In this document: piece after piece, positions 22,425-30,621 of the stretch
Layout of the letters: each line of letters starts with the position of its first letter
Position numbering within the stretch: the first letter of the stretch is position 1
Source of the DNA: Edaphobacter flagellatus
GTDB taxonomy: Bacteria > Acidobacteriota > Terriglobia > Terriglobales > Acidobacteriaceae
Assembly (NCBI RefSeq): GCF_025264665.1
Contig: NZ_CP073697.1
Coordinates: forward strand, 3,515,501-3,579,500
DNA: 64,000 bases
Direction of reading: 5' to 3'
Position numbers and translations under genes: made by a program
The notes under the pieces: model-generated
Seen by the model: the letters and a program-made list of their open reading frames with translations, nothing else
What the model was told of the DNA's origin: nothing
The model's database searches: none

Positions 22425-23765
22425 TTAGTGCAGGCCGAGGTGAGCCTGCATGCCCTCGAGCGTCTGTCCCTTGGTTTCGGGGTAAAAGATGAGGACGGTG
22501 AAGAACTGCACGACCATCATGGCGGCGAAGAAGGCGAAGGGCATCGCCTTGGAGTAGGCGGCTACGTAGGGGAAGATGTTGGCGATGATGCCGTTGGCGA
22601 TCCAGTGTGAGGAGGAGCCGAGGGACTGTCCTTTGGAGCGGACGTTGGTGGGGAAGACTTCGGAGAGATAGACCCAGATGACGGCTCCCTGCGAGAGGGC
22701 GAAGGAGGCGATGAAGAAGACGAGGAAGGGCAGCAGGAGATGGAGGTGCGAGTTGGTGTGGAAGACCCAGGCAACGCCGGAGAGGGCGAGGCAGGTGCCG
22801 ACGGCTCCGATGAGGAGGAGAGGCTTGCGGCCAATCTTGTCGATGATGGCGATGCCGATGAGGGTGAAGACGAGGTTGGCGAGTCCGACGAAGACGGCCT
22901 GCACGTTGCCGGAGACGGAGCTGAAGCCGGCGAAGCCGAAGATGTCGTTGAGGTAGTAAAGGATGGCGTTGATGCCGGAGAGCTGGTTGAAGAGGCCGAT
23001 GGAGACGGCGAGGAAGATCAGTTTGGCGTAGCGCGACTGGAAGAGCGAATGCTGGGCGGTTCCGCCTTCGGCGCGGATGGAGGCGGCGATGGCGTCGACT
23101 TCGGCCTGCGAGTCGGGTGAGCCGAATTCGGCGAGGATGCGGTAGGCCTCGTCGAGGCGGTTTTGCGAGATGAGCCAGCGCGAGGAGTGCGGCACGGTGT
23201 AGAGCAGCGCCATGAAGAGCATGGCGGGCAGGACGCCGACGCCGAGCTGGACGCGCCACTCGATCGCGCCGAGCGCGAAGTGCGCGACGACGGCGTTCGA
23301 CAGGTAGGCGAGCAGGATGCCGATGACGATGTTGATCTGGAAGAGGCCGACAAGGCGTCCGCGCCACTTGGCCGGGGCGAGTTCGGCGATGTAGACGGGG
23401 CCGAGGACGGATGAGCCTCCGATGCCGAGTCCGCCGAGGAAGCGGAAGAAGAGGAAGGTCCACCAGGGACCGGCGAAGGCGCAGCCGAGAGAGGAGATGA
23501 CGTAGAGCACAGCCATGATGCGCAGCGCGGCGCGGCTGCCGATCTTCTGGCCGAGAGGCCCGGCGAAGATGGCCCCGAGGACGGTGCCGTAGAGCGCGAT
23601 GGCGACGGTGAATCCTTTTTCGCCTTCTGTGAGCGCGTAGTGAAGCTGGAGCGAGTGCGTGACGCCGGAGATGACGGCGGTATCGAAGCCGAAGAGCAGG
23701 CCTCCGAGGGCTCCGGTAAGAGCGCTTTTGGCGAGGAGGTAGAAGGAGCGGTTCTGTGAGCTCAT
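22425..23765 (-). CDS. Sugar porter family MFS transporter
   Basis: 446 residues from ATG 23765 (an upstream extension to 23849 lacks the family N-terminus). Twelve membrane segments. GGLLFGFDTAVISG in TM1, FLGGLGIGGSSVLGPVYIAELAPAKWRGRLV, the QLSGINAILYY motif in TM7 and the closing FYPETKGQTLEGM are the sugar-porter (GLUT/XylE) signatures; the family usually imports a hexose or pentose with protons. The substrate cannot be told. It is monocistronic and diverges from the small zinc-ribbon gene. Confidence 0.94.
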   Translation of the reverse strand: MSSQNRSFYLLAKSALTGALGGLLFGFDTAVISGVTHSLQLHYALTEGEKGFTVAIALYGTVLGAIFAGPLGQKIGSRAALRIMAVLYVISSLGCAFAGPWWTFLFFRFLGGLGIGGSSVLGPVYIAELAPAKWRGRLVGLFQINIVIGILLAYLSNAVVAHFALGAIEWRVQLGVGVLPAMLFMALLYTVPHSSRWLISQNRLDEAYRILAEFGSPDSQAEVDAIAASIRAEGGTAQHSLFQSRYAKLIFLAVSIGLFNQLSGINAILYYLNDIFGFAGFSSVSGNVQAVFVGLANLVFTLIGIAIIDKIGRKPLLLIGAVGTCLALSGVAWVFHTNSHLHLLLPFLVFFIASFALSQGAVIWVYLSEVFPTNVRSKGQSLGSSSHWIANGIIANIFPYVAAYSKAMPFAFFAAMMVVQFFTVLIFYPETKGQTLEGMQAHLGLH

Positions 23766-23886
23766 GCGTTTGATGGCGAGGGTACATGGTTGTGGGGCGG
23801 TTGTCGATTGCCGTGGCGCGGCGGGAACGCCGAGTTTCTTGCGCCACACAGGATCTCAATGTAGTGTCGATGCGAGGGTCGGCTGG

Positions 23887-24135
23887 ATGGCAATCTTTCT
23901 ATTCTTCGTGATGCTTTGTGTGCTGGTTGCAGGCCTGGTTTTGCTGGTGCGTGGCACGGTCAAGAAAAGTAAATGGGGAATCAATATACAAGCTGTTGCG
24001 TGTCCTCGGTGCCATGCTGCGTTGCCGCAGATTCGTAAGCCTACTTCGTTCAAGCAAGCGATGTGGGGAGGCAGCTCATGCCAGAGCTGTGGGGCGGAGC
24101 TGGATAAGTGGGGCCGGGAGATCGGCAGAGGGTAA
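23887..24135 (+). CDS. Small membrane protein with zinc ribbon
   Basis: 82 residues from ATG 23887. One membrane helix (about 2-23) is followed by a cytoplasmic domain with CPRCHA (about 37-42) and CQSCGAE (about 65-71), two CxxC pairs that should bind one zinc. No specific family recognised. It lies alone between the sugar porter and the sigma factor gene and converges on the latter. Start chosen because it places the helix at the N-terminus; the longer reading has no sensible start. Confidence 0.65.
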   Translation: MAIFLFFVMLCVLVAGLVLLVRGTVKKSKWGINIQAVACPRCHAALPQIRKPTSFKQAMWGGSSCQSCGAELDKWGREIGRG

Positions 24136-24186: not shown

Positions 24187-25509
24187 TCAGGCTTTAGTTG
24201 AAACGCAGGCTTTGGCGCGGTCGAGGAGCAGGGCTTGTTCACGTGCGTTGCGGGTGAGGGAGGCGGCGCGCTCGAACTCGGCGCGAGCTTCGTCGAATCG
24301 GTTGAGCTTGAAGAGGAGGTCGCCGCGGACACTGGGCAGCAGGTGGTAGCCCTTGAGTGAGGGTATTCCTGTCAGGGTGTCGACGATGGCGAGTCCGGCG
24401 GCGGGCCCTTCGGCCATCGAGATGGCGACAGCGCGGTTGAGCTCGATGATGGGCGACGGTGCTGTGAAGTTGAGCTGCAGGTAGATCTGGGAGATGCGCG
24501 TCCAGTCGGTGTCTTCGGCAGTGGCGGCGCGTGCGTGGCAGGCGGCGATTGCGGCCTGCAGGACGTAGGGACCGGGCTGGGTGTTGGATGATGCGAGGAG
24601 ATTTTCCGCAGCGGTGAGTGCGGCGAGGCCGCGGCCGATGAGGAGCTGGTCCCAGCGTGTGCGGTCCTGGTTGAGGAGGAGGATGGGCTCGCCGGTGGGG
24701 CTGATGCGCGCGTGAAGGCGCGAGGCCTGAATCTCCATGAGAGAGACGAGACCGTGGACTTCGGGTTCGTCGGGGGTGAGCTCGGCAAGGATGCGGCCGA
24801 GGCGGAGTGCGTCTTCGCAGAGTGCGGGGCGTGTCCAGTCGTCGCCTGCGGTGGCGGCGTAGCCTTCGTTGAAGACGAGGTAGATGACCTGGAGGACGGA
24901 GGCGAGGCGCGCGGTGAACTCGTCGCCGCGAGGGACTTCGAAGGGAATCTTTGCGTCGCTCAAGGTGCGTTTGGCGCGGACGATGCGCTGGGCGACGGTG
25001 GGTTCGGAGAGGAGAAAAGCGCGGGCGATCTCGTCGGTAGTGAGGCCGCCGAGAAGGCGCAGCGTGAGGGCGACGCGCGATTCGGCCGAGAGGATGGGGT
25101 GGCAGGAGATGAAGATGAGGCGGAGAAGATCGTCGGCGACGGGGGAGTCGATGGCGTCGTTGATGTCGTCGGGGGTGAGCTGTCGGGTTCCGGTGAGCTC
25201 GTAGCCGAGCTGCTCGTGTTTACGGTCGAGGAGCTTGTTGCGGCGCAGGTTGTCGATGGCGCGGTGCTTGGCAGTGGCCATGAGCCAGGCGCCGGGGTTG
25301 TCGGGAATGCCGGCCTGGGGCCAGCGCTCGAGTGCGACGACGAGGGCGTCCTGGGCGAGATCTTCGGCTAGGCCGACGTCGCGGACGATGCGGGTGAGCG
25401 CGGCGATGAGACGCGGGGATTCGATGCGCCAGATGGCGTCGATAGAGCGATGAATCTCCTGCGTCGGTTGGCTGTCGGCGGCTTGCGGCATCACGAATGA
25501 TGAGAGCAT
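24187..25509 (-). CDS. ECF RNA polymerase sigma factor, ECF42 type with C-terminal TPR-like extension
   Basis: 440 residues from ATG 25509 (ATG 25491 is equally possible). Sigma region 2 covers about 20-90 (LIAALTRIVRDVGLAEDLAQDAL, NPGAWLMATAKHRAIDNLRR) and region 4 about 120-180 (LRLLGGLTTDEIARAFLLSEPTVAQRI). The remaining 250 residues are the helical extension of this group (LVFNEGYAAT, EVHGLVSLMEIQASR, ELNRAVAISMAEGP), which in ECF42 proteins is needed for activity and replaces an anti-sigma factor. ECF42 genes characteristically adjoin DGPF proteins, exactly as here. It is divergent from the VOC gene; no autoregulatory TGTCGA promoter precedes it. Confidence 0.93.
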   Translation of the reverse strand: MLSSFVMPQAADSQPTQEIHRSIDAIWRIESPRLIAALTRIVRDVGLAEDLAQDALVVALERWPQAGIPDNPGAWLMATAKHRAIDNLRRNKLLDRKHEQLGYELTGTRQLTPDDINDAIDSPVADDLLRLIFISCHPILSAESRVALTLRLLGGLTTDEIARAFLLSEPTVAQRIVRAKRTLSDAKIPFEVPRGDEFTARLASVLQVIYLVFNEGYAATAGDDWTRPALCEDALRLGRILAELTPDEPEVHGLVSLMEIQASRLHARISPTGEPILLLNQDRTRWDQLLIGRGLAALTAAENLLASSNTQPGPYVLQAAIAACHARAATAEDTDWTRISQIYLQLNFTAPSPIIELNRAVAISMAEGPAAGLAIVDTLTGIPSLKGYHLLPSVRGDLLFKLNRFDEARAEFERAASLTRNAREQALLLDRAKACVSTKA

Positions 25510-25580
25510 CTTCGGTGGCTGAGGTGCAAGGCGGGCTGTGAATCGGATGCGAATGATTTTTACGAGATTTACAACGGAAG

Positions 25581-25609
25581 TGTCGATTTCGGGTGTTCTC
25601 AAACGACAT
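25581..25609 (+). promoter_or_regulatory. ECF42-type promoter for the VOC gene
   Basis: TGTCGA (25581-25586), 17 bases, then CGACAT (25604-25609). The same boxes and spacing occur twice before the DGPF operon. Transcription would start near 25616, giving a leader of about 34 bases that contains the AGAGAGG ribosome site. From memory, TGTCGA and CGAC-like boxes are those reported for ECF42 sigma factors. Confidence 0.8.
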
Positions 25610-25649
25610 ACTGGTAGGCGCTGGATGCGCCAGAGAGAGAGGATCAAGG

Positions 25650-26060
25650 ATGAAGCTAATGACCTATGTCAATTACTCCGGCAACTGCGCGGAGGCGTTT
25701 CGTTATTACGAGAAGCATTTGGGCGGGAAGCTGGTCTTCATGATGACGCATGGCGAGTCGCCGGTTCCGCAGCCGGATCTTGGAACGGACTGGAAGGATG
25801 CGGTGCTTCATGCGCGGATCGATATTGGGGGGACTCCGCTGCTGGGTGCGGATATCCCAAAGGCCGAGCCGATGCGGAGTGCTTATCTGACACTGAATGT
25901 CGACAGCAATGAGGAGGCGGAGCGTATCTACGCGGCGCTCTCAGAAGGCGGCGAGATTTTTATGCCAATCCAGGAGACGTTCTTTGCCTTCCGGTTTGCG
26001 ATGGTGCGGGATAAGTTTGGAGCTTCGTGGATGATCCTGCGCGAGCGTCCGCCACAGTAG
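25650..26060 (+). CDS. VOC family (PhnB/glyoxalase-like) protein
   Basis: 136 residues from ATG 25650, preceded by AGAGAGG. The MKLMTYVNYSGNCAEAFRYYEKHLGGKL opening (as YVNYSGNCAEAFRYYEKHLGG), the ADIPKAEP stretch and the closing RFAMVRDKFGASWMIL place it in the PhnB/3-demethylubiquinone-like VOC group, small paired beta-alpha-beta proteins of mostly unknown substrate. Lying behind an ECF42-type promoter and opposite the sigma factor, it is almost certainly part of the regulon. It shares the bidirectional terminator with the convergent DoxX-like gene. Confidence 0.9.
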   Translation: MKLMTYVNYSGNCAEAFRYYEKHLGGKLVFMMTHGESPVPQPDLGTDWKDAVLHARIDIGGTPLLGADIPKAEPMRSAYLTLNVDSNEEAERIYAALSEGGEIFMPIQETFFAFRFAMVRDKFGASWMILRERPPQ

Positions 26061-26077
26061 GTTTTATAGAGTTGATT

Positions 26078-26117
26078 AAAAAACAAAGGCACGGCTTATA
26101 CCGTGCCTTTGTTTTTT
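26078..26117. terminator. Perfect bidirectional terminator
   Basis: A 17-bp perfect stem, 26078-26094 against 26101-26117, with loop CTTATA; the GC core GGCACGG is flanked by an A run on one side and a T run on the other, so it ends transcripts from both strands. It closes the VOC transcript and the DGPF-DoxX operon. Confidence 0.95.
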
Positions 26118-26129
26118 AGCTGGCCGCGA

Positions 26130-26924
26130 TTATTTGCGGATAGGAAGCAGTGCGCGGACGCGGAGGTTGCGCAACCAGAGGCCAGCCCAGAGGACGATGC
26201 CGATGTAGACGGTAACGAGGCTGGTGGAGACGGGTTGGCCTCCACGCAGGCAGATAGCGGTCGCTCCACCGAGATAGCCGGTGAGAAGAACATTGCCGAG
26301 GAACGAGGTGGAAGGGAAGAGATAAATCAGGACGCAGAAAATCTCAAGGATGCCGAGAGCGTGTACGTGCTCGGGTGGGAAAAGGGGCGGAGGTGAGCCT
26401 GCGGGCGGAACGTAGATGAACTTCATGAGGGCGGTGAAGAGCATGAGGAGTGCGGAGAGCGCGGTGAGAACGTAGCCGGTGTAGAGCGCTCCCTTTGCCG
26501 CCGGTGGCTGCGATGGCCCCTTAACGATGGGAAAGAGGCTGCGGAGGTTGGCGTCGCGGAGCCAGATGCCTCCCCAGATGAAGAGAGCGACATAGATGGG
26601 AAAAAGGATGTGGGAGAAGAGCGGGTTGCCGACGCGCCAATGAATCGCGATCGCTCCGCCGAGATAGCCGGTGAGGAGCACGGCTCCGAGGACGGTTGTG
26701 GCAGGGATAGCATAGAGCGCGATGCAGACGAGAGCGATCACACCGAGTGCGGGTGTGAGCTGCATGGGAAATTGAAGCTGCTTCTGTGCCTCAACGACCT
26801 GCGGATTGGTGGTGAACTTGAATCCGGCGTCCATCAGGAAGAAGAGGATGGAGAGCGTGGTGAGGGCGTAGCCGGTGTAGAGGCGGGCTTTCGATGGAGA
26901 GCCTGTCTGGATGTCGACCGTCAT
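26130..26924 (-). CDS. Membrane protein of two tandem DoxX-like units
   Basis: 264 residues, eight membrane segments in two similar halves. Each half starts LYTGYxLTxLS (about 15 and 147), contains VLLTGYLGGAxAI (about 82 and 215) and ends in WLRxxxxRxLxPI. A single DoxX-like protein is about 130 residues, so this is an internal duplication or fusion. DoxX-like proteins are small integral membrane proteins of uncertain, often redox-related, function. It is the last gene of the DGPF operon, 132 bases after the nearest DGPF gene and just before the terminator, and DoxX-like partners are known around ECF42 clusters. Confidence 0.85.
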   Translation of the reverse strand: MTVDIQTGSPSKARLYTGYALTTLSILFFLMDAGFKFTTNPQVVEAQKQLQFPMQLTPALGVIALVCIALYAIPATTVLGAVLLTGYLGGAIAIHWRVGNPLFSHILFPIYVALFIWGGIWLRDANLRSLFPIVKGPSQPPAAKGALYTGYVLTALSALLMLFTALMKFIYVPPAGSPPPLFPPEHVHALGILEIFCVLIYLFPSTSFLGNVLLTGYLGGATAICLRGGQPVSTSLVTVYIGIVLWAGLWLRNLRVRALLPIRK

Positions 26925-27056
26925 GTTGTTTTCTCCGTTTTGGAGGATGTGTGATGCAGGGTTTGTGGCGAGGCAGCGAAATGCGGTGGTGTCCTCGACT
27001 TCGCTGCGCTCACCCGGAATGACACTTTTGAAGCGGTACAGATGTAGATGAGTGGC

Positions 27057-27488
27057 TTAGTTTGGCTTGCGTGCGGCGAGTTCGGCGCGGAGGCGCTCTT
27101 CACTCTCACGTAACTTGTGTGTGACCTCGTCACCGAAGTCTTCGAGCTCGAAGACCTGGCGGATCTCGATCTCGCTCTCTTCGTTGAACGGGTTAGGGCA
27201 GCGCTTAACCCAGGCGATAGCTTCGTCGAGCGACTTGCACTGCCAGATCCAGAAACCGGCGACGAGTTCTTTTGTCTCGGCGAATGGGCCGTCGTGAACG
27301 GTGCGCTTGTCGCCGCTGAAGGTGACGCGCGCGCCCTTGGAGCTGGACTGGAGGCCTTCGCCGGAGAGCATGATGCCGGCGGCGGCGAGCTCTTCGTTGA
27401 ACTTGCCCATGGCTTCGAGGATCTTGGCGTCGGGCGTGCCTCCGGCTTCGGAGGTGGGGGTGGCTTTGATGAGGATGGCGAAACGCAT
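27057..27488 (-). CDS. DGPF-domain (YCII-related) protein
   Basis: 143 residues. MRFAILIKATP opens the protein, GARVTFSGDK precedes the signature HDGPFAETKELVAGFWIWQ (about 65-83), and EAIAWVKRCPNP follows, matching the PhnB-neighbour YCII-related (DGPF, COG3795) family. The fold is a small ferredoxin-like dimer; the reaction, if any, is unknown. In ECF42 loci these proteins are the main target genes. The last 25 residues form a charged helix. Third DGPF gene of the operon. Confidence 0.9.
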   Translation of the reverse strand: MRFAILIKATPTSEAGGTPDAKILEAMGKFNEELAAAGIMLSGEGLQSSSKGARVTFSGDKRTVHDGPFAETKELVAGFWIWQCKSLDEAIAWVKRCPNPFNEESEIEIRQVFELEDFGDEVTHKLRESEERLRAELAARKPN

Positions 27489-27545
27489 CTTTTGTTGCTC
27501 CTTATTTTCTCGGTTGCGGTGAAATGGTATTCGGTTGCAGCGCTC

Positions 27546-27974
27546 TCAGGAAGCGCGTGAGCCGGGATGGTGAGGCTGCATCTCGGGGAACCTGCCGAGC
27601 TCTTTCTGGACGTCGTCGGGAAAATCGGCGAACTCCTGTACCTGACGAACCTCGATGGTGTCGTTGCCGAGGACGGGGCAGCGCTTTGCCCACTCGATGG
27701 CTTCTTCGCGCGAGCGTACCTGGATCATCCAGTAGCCGCCAAGAACTTCTTTGGCTTCGATAAAGGGGCCATCGATGACGTGAGGCTTGCCTCCGTCGAA
27801 GGTGACGCGCGCGCCCATCGAAGGAGGGTGCAAGCCGTCGAGCGAGAGCAGCACACCGGCCTTCCTGAGGGATTCGTTGTACTTCATCATGGCGGCGACG
27901 GCCTCAGCAGAGGGCATCGCGCCGGGTTCGGCGCTCTCGTAGCCTTTGGGGATCATGAGCATCATGAATCGCAT
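27546..27974 (-). CDS. DGPF-domain (YCII-related) protein
   Basis: 142 residues. MRFMMLMIPKGYES, GARVTFDGGKPHVI, the signature DGPFIEAKEVLGGYWMIQ and EAIEWAKRCPVLG follow the same order as in its neighbours. It is closer to the 27057 protein than to the shorter 27999 one. It starts 24 bases after the upstream DGPF gene ends and precedes the next by 57, so it is certainly in the operon. Function unknown; expected to act as a dimer in the cytoplasm. Confidence 0.9.
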   Translation of the reverse strand: MRFMMLMIPKGYESAEPGAMPSAEAVAAMMKYNESLRKAGVLLSLDGLHPPSMGARVTFDGGKPHVIDGPFIEAKEVLGGYWMIQVRSREEAIEWAKRCPVLGNDTIEVRQVQEFADFPDDVQKELGRFPEMQPHHPGSRAS

Positions 27975-27998
27975 GGTGTTTCTCCGTGTGGATAGTGA

Positions 27999-28373
27999 TT
28001 AAAGCGTGGCGGTGTCGCAGGCCGGTTGGTCGTAGAGGGTGAGGATCTTGACATCGCCGCCGCCGACGATCTCGAGGAACTCGTGAGCTTCGGCGATGGC
28101 CTCGCGCATGGAGTTCAGCTTGAAGATGGCGAAGCCGCCGACGATCTCCCTGGCTTCGGAGAAGGGACCGTCGGTGATGGAGAGCTTGCCGCCTGTGAGA
28201 TTGACGAGCGCACCCTTGGAGCTGGGCAGACAGCCTTCGGTGGAGATCAGCTTGCCTTCGGCAAACTTTCTCTGGATGAGCTCGCCCATCTTCTGCATCA
28301 TCTCGGGGGTGGGCGGTGCGCCGGCTTCAGAGGCTGCGGTGTCGGCGGGGCGGGAAATCATGAGGAAGCGCAT
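27999..28373 (-). CDS. DGPF-domain (YCII-related) protein, short form
   Basis: 124 residues from ATG 28373, preceded by AAAGGAG with five-base spacing. MRFLMISRPAD, KGALVNLTGGKLSI, DGPFSEAREIVGGFAIFK and the C-terminal GGGDVKILTLYD are recognisable. It lacks the charged C-terminal helix of its paralogues. An ECF42-type promoter lies 76-104 bases upstream. Unusually, the frame is open upstream to an ATG at 28601 that has its own ribosome site and ECF42-type promoter, so a longer product with an N-terminal membrane segment is also possible. Confidence 0.85.
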   Translation of the reverse strand: MRFLMISRPADTAASEAGAPPTPEMMQKMGELIQRKFAEGKLISTEGCLPSSKGALVNLTGGKLSITDGPFSEAREIVGGFAIFKLNSMREAIAEAHEFLEIVGGGDVKILTLYDQPACDTATL

Positions 28374-28601
28374 TGTTTCTCCTTTGGGTGTAAATCGTTG
28401 TTCGGGACGATCGTGGCACGAAGACCGGGTTCGTCCGCTCTTACCTATACGTCGAACGGAGTCGGTCGATATCGACACGCCCGTGAAGTTTTTCTGGAAA
28501 ATTATTTCGAGCGGTGCGATCGCGGTTTGTGAGCCAGCCAGAAGCGCAAGGCCATAGATGACGACAAATGTAGTGAAAGCGGACCAGTTGCTTGAGCGCA
28601 T
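28374..28601 (-). other. In-frame upstream extension or gene remnant with its own promoter and RBS
   Basis: From ATG 28601, with GGGAGGG five bases upstream, 76 codons run without a stop into the start of the 27999-28373 DGPF gene. The first 30 residues contain a hydrophobic helix (FTTFVVIYGLALLAG); the rest (DSVRRIGKSGRTRSS...) is low in coding character and overlaps the second promoter. It may be the head of a deleted membrane-protein gene, or an alternative N-terminus for the DGPF protein. Confidence 0.45.
28449..28477 (-). promoter_or_regulatory. ECF42-type promoter P1 of the DGPF operon
   Basis: On the minus strand TGTCGA (28477-28472), 17 bases, CGACGT (28454-28449). Start near 28442 gives a leader of about 70 bases to the DGPF gene at 28373. 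The -35 region is part of a GTCGATATCGAC palindrome. Confidence 0.8.
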
Positions 28602-28630
28602 GGTGTCCCTCCCGTTGGAGCTTCACTACT

Positions 28631-28659
28631 ATGTCGAACGGGAAGGTGCCGGATCGACA
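28631..28659 (-). promoter_or_regulatory. ECF42-type promoter P2 of the DGPF operon
   Basis: On the minus strand TGTCGA (28659-28654), 17 bases, CGACAT (28636-28631). Start near 28624 would leave a leader of about 23 bases holding a GGGAGGG ribosome site before ATG 28601. It lies in the gap after the 28688 DGPF gene. Confidence 0.8.
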
Positions 28660-28687
28660 CGCTCGGAAGATTTTTATTGCTGAGTGG

Positions 28688-29134
28688 CTAGACGGTCTGA
28701 AGCTTGAGGAGTCTTTCGGCGTCGGCGGCCATGGTCTTCGAGGCGTGCAGGGTGAGGGGCTCGGCGCAGTCGGCGGGGAAGTCGGAGGCTTCGACAACCT
28801 GACGGATTTCGGCCTGGGCGTCGACGACGCCGGTGAGGGTGGGGCAGCGGCGAGCCCAGCGAATGGCTTCTTCGAGGGAGGGGACTTCGATGACGATGAA
28901 GCCGGCGATCACTTCCTTGAGTTCGGTGAAGGGACCGTCGACGACGGTTTGTTTGCCCTGCGAGGCAACGATGCGTGCGGATTTGGCGGTGGGGCGGAGC
29001 CATTCGCCAGCGACGAGGACTCCGGCGTCGCGCATGTCCTGGTAGTAACGGCCGATGGCGGCGAGGAGGTTCTTGTCGGGGAGAGCGCCGGTCTCCATGT
29101 TGGCGTCGGATTTGCGGATGATCATGAAGCGCAT
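28688..29134 (-). CDS. DGPF-domain (YCII-related) protein
   Basis: 148 residues. MRFMIIRKSDANMETG, the ARIVASQGKQTVV strand, signature DGPFTELKEVIAGFIVIE and EAIRWARRCP are all present, with an extended acidic-to-basic C-terminal helix to LLKLQTV. It is the most upstream DGPF gene of the cluster and lies before both ECF42-type promoters; none of that type was found in front of it, so it may have a different promoter and contribute basal read-through. Role unknown, same family as the other three. Confidence 0.9.
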   Translation of the reverse strand: MRFMIIRKSDANMETGALPDKNLLAAIGRYYQDMRDAGVLVAGEWLRPTAKSARIVASQGKQTVVDGPFTELKEVIAGFIVIEVPSLEEAIRWARRCPTLTGVVDAQAEIRQVVEASDFPADCAEPLTLHASKTMAADAERLLKLQTV

Positions 29135-29655: not shown

Positions 29656-30621
29656 CTAACGCGCCAGACGCTCTAGATGGCGATAGCCTCCGGTCGCGAT
29701 GAAGAGTGTCAGGAAGACGGATGCGTTGTAGCTGGCGTGGACGAGGGTTGAGCAGGCTACGGAGCGGGTCTTGATGCGCACGATGGAGAGGACCAGCGAG
29801 ACGCAGAAGAGGACGAAGAGGGCGACCCAGGCGTGGGCGAGCTGTTCGGCGTGCAGCAGGGCGAACAGGATGCTCGACAGGATGGTCGAGAAGACGATGG
29901 CTGCCGTGGTGAGGCCGGTGGTGTTGTGCCAGCGTTCTCGGGCGGCGGGGGTTTTGGGCAGCGAGAGCCAGTCGTAGGCGATGGCGAAGGCGGGGAAGAG
30001 GAAGCCGCGGAAGGCGATCTCCTCGAACAGCGGAGCGACCAGGGTGCCGAATGCCGTGACCAGCCAGACGTCGGAGGTATGGCGGAAGAAGTCGTCCATG
30101 GGGATCGACTTGGGCACGGGGATGAGCGAGGAGATGGCCTGCACGGCGAAGCCGGTGATGAGGCCTATGGGGATCAACTTCCAGGCGTTGCGGCGGGCGG
30201 TGGCGAAGTCCCACTGGATGCCGTCGGCGAAGCTGCGCTGCCAGAGCAGCGGAAAGAAGAAGAAGGAGATGCCGAGCGTAACGAGGTAGGTGATCGCTTG
30301 TGAGGCGATGATCAGCTTGGGGTGGAGCGCTGCGTTGGCTGTACGGTGCGGATCGGCTACCGGATGCGACAGGCCAAGCAGCGTAATCTGCGTGAAGACC
30401 AGAACAAGAGCCGCCAGGGAGACGAAGAGCACGGCGTGGCCAAGGTGCGGGACGCGCGCGGGGACTCCGGGGCCGGGGGCGACAGAGGGCGGCGGAGCCT
30501 CGATGATGATGGCTTCGACTTCCTTGGGCAGAGGCGCAATGGGCCGGACGGCCGGTGCCTGCGGCTGGGAGAAGTCCCGCTTGAGGTCTTCAGGAAGCGG
30601 AGGTGTGGAAGGGTGGCTCAT
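29656..30621 (-). CDS. CPBP family intramembrane metalloprotease
   Basis: 321 residues. An N-terminal Pro-rich cytoplasmic stretch (1-58) precedes about seven membrane segments. The active-site motifs of the CAAX protease/bacteriocin-processing family are visible: [12 protein letters not shown] (EExxxR, about 198-209), FALLHAEQ and LVHASYN. Members cleave prenylated or leader-containing peptides or act as immunity proteins; the role here is open. It begins in the ATGA that ends uvrA, so it is translated with the repair gene. No peptide precursor was seen nearby. Confidence 0.9.

Follow-up and report, generated by a model that had tools for sequence, protein, structure and literature searches.

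A compact locus in a 64-kb stretch of the 4.45-Mb genome of Edaphobacter flagellatus (contig NZ_CP073697.1; the whole stretch is called the window here) holds the gene of an ECF42-type sigma factor together with genes for one VOC protein, four YCII/DGPF proteins and a doubled DoxX-like membrane protein, and three promoters of matching sequence (Table 1). We have compared this locus with its relatives in order to see which genes the promoters serve, how the sigma gene is placed in relation to them, and what lies at the 5' ends of the transcripts, where a small RNA hairpin often seems to begin at +2.

Table 1. Features of the ECF42-type locus, in window positions
Feature	Position	Strand	Remarks
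ECF42-type sigma factor gene	24187..25509	-	Pfam sigma-70 r2, r4_2, DUF6596, weak C-terminal TPR; start 25509 or 25491
ECF42-type VOC promoter	25581..25609	+	TGTCGA-N17-CGACAT; matrix 20.3; predicted start 25616
VOC leader	25616..25649	+	predicted 5-bp hairpin GGCGC/GCGCC from +2; z -2.17 on 35 nt, -2.77 on 25 nt
VOC-superfamily protein (PhnB / YjdN-like)	25650..26060	+	Pfam PF06983 and PF00903 above cut-off
Terminator hairpin	26076..26119	.	flanked by A/T runs; lies between the convergent VOC and DoxX genes; plus strand folded
Double DoxX_2 membrane protein	26130..26924	-	two DoxX_2 stretches, E 1.5e-30 (Pfam)
YCII/DGPF protein 4 (DGPF4)	27057..27488	-	Pfam YCII; DGPF motif present
YCII/DGPF protein 3 (DGPF3)	27546..27974	-	Pfam YCII; DGPF motif present; PDB relative 1s7i, E 4.6e-12
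YCII/DGPF protein 2 (DGPF2)	27999..28373	-	Pfam YCII; in-frame extension to 28601 without conservation
ECF42-type promoter P2	28449..28477	-	TGTCGA-N17-CGACGT; matrix 46.3; R1 E 7.5e-8; predicted start 28442
ECF42-type promoter P1	28631..28659	-	TGTCGA-N17-CGACAT; matrix 46.2; R1 E 8.9e-8; predicted start 28624
YCII/DGPF protein 1 (DGPF1)	28688..29134	-	Pfam YCII; upstream of P1

The gene content, first described in an earlier reading of the sequence (the original prediction) as an extended sigma factor, one VOC, four DGPF and a doubled DoxX protein, agrees with Pfam, and the assignment to ECF42 is upheld by the combination of sigma r2, r4_2 and DUF6596, by the linked YCII genes and by the matching promoters. 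In the sigma factor PF04542 and PF08281 score above their cut-offs and no region 3 model is listed; its C-terminal extension of about 200 residues matches DUF6596 with 122 bits (cut-off 27) and TPR_2 with 22.2 bits, which is under the cut-off of 27, and the solved relatives found in the PDB are sigma domains only. The likeliest start of the gene is 25509 or 25491, rather than the TTG at 25647, because the listed full-length matches set in at residues 1-20 of the form that starts at 25491. The VOC protein also matches PRK10148, under the cut-off of that model, and has PDB 1u6l and 3oms as solved relatives. All four YCII proteins of the window have the DGPF motif and a fifth, from the second ECF42 locus of the genome, has DGPY, which leaves DGP invariant in five of five. 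DGPF2 most likely starts at 28373. The extension in frame with it (28374-28601, 76 codons with a membrane-like stretch, between P1 and P2) has a ribosome site judged good by eye; we treat it as unsupported, because a search of the 298 genomes of the order gave nothing convincing for its first 53 residues (best E 0.011), a Pfam scan of it gave no match, and most homologues start downstream, at residues 63-77 of the long open reading frame. The common terminator that had been claimed was found again as a stem of 18-19 pairs (folding z -7.4) separating the convergent VOC and DoxX genes. No anti-sigma gene was found among the neighbouring reading frames scanned with Pfam, a scan outside which the small reading frame at 23764-24135 and the farther genes fall. 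A homologue of Rce1-like CAAX proteases is encoded at 29656-30621, and in L058, L059 and L060, loci of the same genus, homologues are also found near DGPF1.

The three pairs of promoter boxes lie where they had been placed, on the same strands, and they are unlikely to be an effect of chance, just as had been argued: TGTCGA-N17-CGAC matches the window exactly four times, one of the matches being the P1 site read in reverse, while 100 dinucleotide shuffles of the window contained 0.25 on average and none reached four. The short form, with which a scan of the whole genome had been suggested, is unspecific and does not define the regulon, because it has 15 matches in the genome against 8 in a reversed control, whereas the three perfect matches of the extended pattern GTGTCGAT-N16-CGACRTA are all at this locus. 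With up to two mismatches the extended pattern has 20 matches against 12 in the control, and both matches with one mismatch fall within long reading frames elsewhere. This pattern was derived from the three window sites themselves, and the independent test is a matrix made from relatives only, with which the reversed window peaks at -0.8 against 46.3, 46.2 and 20.3 for the window sites. The VOC promoter is the weakest of the three; it has neither the A-tract nor the GTT, and it is absent, even at E<=10, from the whole-genome list of R1, a sequence profile from the promoters of 52 relatives (alignment A1), a search in which 150 of the 1447 first-look candidates were given a score.

The promoters as read from the sequence serve DGPF2-4 with DoxX, and the VOC gene. 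That all four DGPF genes and, by implication, the sigma gene itself would be in the regulon is not supported: DGPF1 is upstream of the promoters, and no ECF42-type site was found within about 400 nucleotides (nt) upstream of DGPF1 (best matrix score -16.2) or of the sigma gene (best -16.6). Nor could any shared element be seen by eye upstream of DGPF1 in an alignment of the window with L058, L059, L060 and L080. The description of the locus as self-contained stands as far as the three good sites of the genome are concerned, but has to be qualified by a weak distant candidate and by a second DUF6596 sigma gene. The search of the own genome with R1 returned P2, P1, two chance-level matches and one weak place at 2379305-2379361 (E 9.8e-4), which precedes a YCII-RibD_C gene pair (G000:C1:2378200-2379361, L120). 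It reads TGTCGA...CATTCGTTGA...TGAAGG, with CGTTGA as -10 and TGAAGG as start, and is nearer to the variant seen by second-class sigma genes; the distant pair may belong to the regulon too. The second DUF6596 sigma gene is located 1.25 Mb from the locus (G000:C1:2288356-2291000, L025), with YCII and RibD_C genes upstream. Its product is of the same family and could, alone or together with the first, use the promoters of the window. We find this improbable, as TGTCG-N18-CGWC is absent from the 13 kb around its gene, so that its promoter probably differs, and as that gene class in two relatives adjoins the variant motif TGTCGAATTC...CGTTCGTCGT...TGAAGG. A variant promoter TGTCGAATTCCGG...CGTTCGTCGT with the start TGAAGGC occurs in L164, L168, L170, L171, L179 and similar loci, and adjoins a second-class sigma gene in L164 and L168; a second promoter dialect is possible.

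A protein search in the 298 genomes of the order gave sigma relatives at E<=1e-30 in 146, and 60 of the listed places with at least 55% identity were taken as comparison loci, about ten at that level being omitted. Forward TGTCGA-N17-CG(A/T)C is found at 54 sites across 39 of these 60 loci, and two of the sites, with leave-one-locus-out scores of -21 and -18, are clearly due to chance. The consensus extends beyond the two boxes: it is A-rich 12-18 bases 5' of TGTCGA, has a T after that box and CGTT ahead of CGACGT, and carries TAGAG soon 3' of the -10 box. The available part of PMC6180224 gives a mapped start for the ECF42 sigma factor RpoE10 of Sinorhizobium meliloti at SMc01149, as a lower-case letter in its Table 1 on which two methods agree, and since this start is 35 nt after the T of TGTCGG, TAGAG would correspond to -1 to +4. 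Among 98 sites chosen on a core score of at least 20 only, T is at -1 in 78, a purine at +1 in 95, G at +2 in 67 and A at +3 in 82. The extended motif separates true sites from chance better than TGTCGA-N17-CGAC does, and sequence matches indicate that the same promoter type occurs in other phyla.

The order of the genes points to a feedback loop that the strain has probably lost. In 51 of the 60 orthologous loci the sigma gene stands at most 250 nt downstream of a YCII, VOC or DoxX gene on the same strand (the nine exceptions are L060, L061, L066 with a gap of 294, L083, L089, L101, L102, L116 and L117), and the chain to the sigma gene is unbroken in 30 of the 35 loci that have an upstream promoter. 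The sigma gene could in this way amplify itself in most of the relatives examined. L058 and L059, the two closest loci, have the order DGPF1, promoter, VOC, DGPF2-4, DoxX, sigma, and DGPF1 is near the promoter in L060 and L080 of the same genus as well. The VOC gene of the window, only 45% identical to that of L058 and L059, is instead inverted between DoxX and sigma under a promoter of its own, and upstream of DGPF2 there are two promoters, at a distance of 182 bases from each other. The operon no longer reaches the sigma gene, because the inverted VOC gene and the terminator intervene, and the strain is probably without the amplification loop.

Autoregulation would be kept if the VOC promoter also drove the divergent sigma gene, for TGTCG-N18-CGACA is nearly palindromic, and at 25581/25582 and 28632/28633 the boxes have a reading on either strand. 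In reverse, however, they come to -16.6 and -12.1, where the forward readings have scores of 20 to 46; for the 54 training sites the median of the reverse readings is -28. On these matrix scores autoregulation through a palindromic VOC promoter was rejected, and bidirectional promoters seem to us highly improbable. A different objection concerns how general the loop is, since the S. meliloti YCII-rpoE10 operon did not respond to overexpression of RpoE10, according to the available part of PMC6180224. That result counters a general positive loop.

The second feature of these promoters lies in the transcript. Folding of the leaders was scored as z against dinucleotide shuffles, in windows of 45 nt starting one base before +1. 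The mean z was -1.59 at the start site (n=55, the three sites of the window included), compared with -0.47 to +0.37 at eleven offsets. When the 5' end was held fixed, the pairing of +2 to +5 was 0.71 against 0.43, and 30 of the 55 sites exceed their own 90th percentile. A further set from the order was made up of 41 loci (40 picks from a promoter search and L120) with 47 sites, selected by a promoter score that covers the first 6 nt of the transcript and excludes the 3' arm; here z was -0.83 at the start against -0.29 to +0.15 at seven offsets, and 17 of 47 sites were above the 90th percentile. A scan of named genomes, from which the best 80 loci were kept and seven phyla judged from titles, gave a promoter with a core score above 12 in 64 of the 80 loci (103 sites, at most four per locus), and 93 sites were left after removal of low totals and of two loci already used. 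The start-site z was -1.26 in Bacillota (44 sites), -0.79 in Pseudomonadota (21) and -0.72 in Acidobacteriota (13), and in the small groups -0.97 in Actinomycetota (7), -0.69 in Chloroflexota (2), +0.10 in Myxococcota (2) and -1.36 in Gemmatimonadota (4), for which offset -40 is low as well (-1.21), so that this last group tells little. In 33 of 195 leaders there is a stem of 7 bp or more anchored at the 5' end, compared with 11.3 in shuffles. On average +1 is seldom paired (0.11), pairing is raised from +2 to +5, and from about +46 toward the ribosome site it is below that of shuffles. A hairpin at +2 tends, as far as predicted folding can tell, to be common in Acidobacteriota and Bacillota and to occur in part of Pseudomonadota.

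A further line of evidence is the co-variation of the two arms. In an alignment-free test, the complement of a 5-nt word near the 5' end was looked for in the tail of its own leader and in permuted tails. It was found in 17 of 52 leaders of the discovery set from the order against 8.6 expected (4 of 5000 permutations as high) and in 33 of 93 from other genomes against 11.6 (0/5000), with 16 of 44 against 5.5 in Bacillota and 9 of 21 against 2.8 in Pseudomonadota (both 0/5000), and the test was null at four control offsets. In 41 non-redundant leaders (below 65% identity) there were 14 against 5.1 (3/10000; GC-stratified 5/10000). The same-genus leaders AGAGCGGC...GCCGCUCU and AAAGCGGC...GCCGCUUU have fully compensated arms. 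A pair count on the leader alignment gave a covariation of 0.262 against 0.183 (0/500) and 20 further pair types against 16.4 (16/500), but we named the structure and chose the rows for the long hairpin class ourselves, and this test is tilted in favour of the structure.

It could be argued that the start region is conserved for initiation only, through start preference and promoter escape, and that the hairpin is a side effect; the purine at +1 and the A at +3 are indeed wider spread than the hairpin. Initiation alone does not predict that the 3' arm, farther downstream, co-varies with the 5' arm, and we regard this explanation as unlikely, though worth keeping in mind. The inverted repeat might also act as DNA, as an operator for a repressor overlapping +1 that adds a second layer of control. 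The repeats are located at the start site and some are perfect, e.g. TAGAGC-N-GCTCTA, but for stems of at least 6 bp the enclosed length varies from 3 to 40 nt, which fits RNA better than a dimeric operator, and the sequence of the arms varies among leaders. An operator is disfavoured because of these varying loop lengths, and we hold it to be distinctly unlikely. Attenuation is disfavoured because no U-run could be seen by eye after the stem in the listed leaders. Rfam had no match over the leader in nine relatives or in the window, where three weak matches, under their gathering scores, lie at the terminator and over a gene. The Acido-Lenti-1 RNA (RF01687) was seen in two of the nine ECF42 loci scanned (L075:6191-6236 and L066:7803-7848), and in L075 it is directly upstream of the ECF42 promoter.

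Several results weigh against a hairpin as a regular part of these promoters. In the window itself only the VOC leader shows it clearly; the P2 leader pairs from +1, weakly (z -0.17), the structure at P1 does not begin at +2 (z -0.71), and in the close relative L058 the stem has one broken pair (z -0.7). The weak structures at P1 and P2 may reflect the rearrangement. Many of the loci are related, and their sites are not independent. The arm test was weak in the new set from the order (13 of 47 against 8.3, 238/5000), and in the non-redundant set it was weak with 4-nt words (436/10000; GC-stratified 1704) and moderate with 6-nt words (54/10000; GC-stratified 214). RNAalifold gave no consensus structure on a MAFFT alignment of 32 leaders, and in the pair count the pairs changed on both sides were not above shuffles (7 against 5.9, 151/500). 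Outside the training set, the mapped leader of S. meliloti SMb20475, AUCAGGUCGGGCUCUCGAUCUGA, can form nine pairs from +2 (with +1 placed at the final base of the promoter as printed) with an unrelated sequence and a significant z of -2.85 on 31 nt, but on 40 and 51 nt the values of -0.8 and -0.32 are not significant. A further, mostly plasmid set, made up of pSymB and 15 plasmid ECF42 loci and containing 17 pattern sites, had no group effect, with z from -1.0 to +1.4 and a mean of about -0.06 by hand, and several of its alphaproteobacterial leaders are 13-22 nt long and without a hairpin. Six of these 16 loci have no site, and two of the 17 sites are inside a transposase and due to chance. 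With no group effect in this set a universal hairpin is not supported, and the predicted leader hairpin is common rather than universal. The plasmid locus L288 (NZ_CP073662.1, plasmid pPNP1) has an ECF42-type sigma gene and an MBL-fold gene between two copies of IS6100, beside a class 1 integron.

Taken together, we are moderately confident that this is a one-component sigma regulon of the ECF42 type that has probably lost its loop here, and whose kind of promoter often carries a leader hairpin from +2 that would protect the message. The sigma factor would bind an extended promoter at three places, composed of an A-tract (missing at VOC), TGTCGAT-N16-CGACRT and T-RRAG at the start site, and switch on DGPF2-DGPF3-DGPF4-DoxX from P1 and P2 and the divergent VOC gene from 25581, both units ending at the one shared terminator. 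Judging from the literature, its activity is probably governed by the C-terminal DUF6596/TPR region and not by an anti-sigma factor, and in most of the relatives examined, but probably not in this strain, it could also raise its own expression. In bacteria with RNase E and in those with RNase J, 5'-end-dependent decay is blocked by a stem that leaves a single nucleotide at the 5' end and is followed by a less structured ribosome site. We hypothesize that the hairpin at +2 in the same way denies a free 5' end to the pyrophosphohydrolase and to the 5'-end-dependent RNases, which would make the messages live longer. The wider proposal, that many ECF42 regulons in several phyla have the extended promoter fused to such a 5'-terminal hairpin, the two being selected as a unit, is a tentative one that may well turn out to be wrong. 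If it is true, one sigma factor sets both the time at which its messages are transcribed and their lifetime, and a functional hairpin would be a built-in post-transcriptional layer that is missed by studies of the two promoter boxes. The ECF42 sigma factors and their DGPF partners span many phyla, and the three-site regulon gives clean reporters for the signal.

In the literature we found no description of a leader hairpin at ECF42 promoters within a coverage that left out Liu 2018, Wu 2019 and a 2014 paper on P. putida; searches joining ECF42 with DGPF, or YCII with sigma factor and DoxX, gave nothing, and those for ECF sigma factor, untranslated region, stem-loop and mRNA stability gave nothing on ECF42 by title. 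The ECF42 sigma factors Sven_0747, Sven_4377 and Sven_7131 of Streptomyces venezuelae have sigma r2/r4, a C-terminal TPR extension of about 200 residues and linked YCII genes, and control by the extension has been proposed for ECF42 in place of an anti-sigma factor (both from the available part of PMC8999054, which cites Liu 2018 and in which a leader hairpin is not mentioned). Our locus resembles them in the sigma regions, the long extension and the linked YCII gene, and differs from them in that three DGPF genes, a double DoxX and a VOC gene are under three sites, with sigma outside the operon. RpoE10 of S. meliloti has TGTCGG-N17-CGTC promoters, few targets including glyoxalase-like genes, and YCII upstream of sigma, as described in the available part of PMC6180224. 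The likeness lies in the promoter form, the few targets, the YCII link and the 9-bp hairpin with which the SMb20475 leader opens; the differences given in the same source are targets on two replicons, a sigma gene predicted to be cotranscribed with YCII, a -35 ending in G and CGTC as -10. The sites of the window have the ECF42 promoter form TGTCGA/G-N17-CG(A/T)C. The regulon looks to be of a known kind, and what may be new is the frequent predicted leader hairpin at such promoters. Stem-loops at the 5' terminus stabilise the mRNA of ompA in E. coli and of ermC and aprE in Bacillus. As in those messages the hairpin is close to the 5' terminus and the ribosome site that follows it is unstructured, but unlike in them it recurs here with the promoters of one sigma family, while its sequence and length change.

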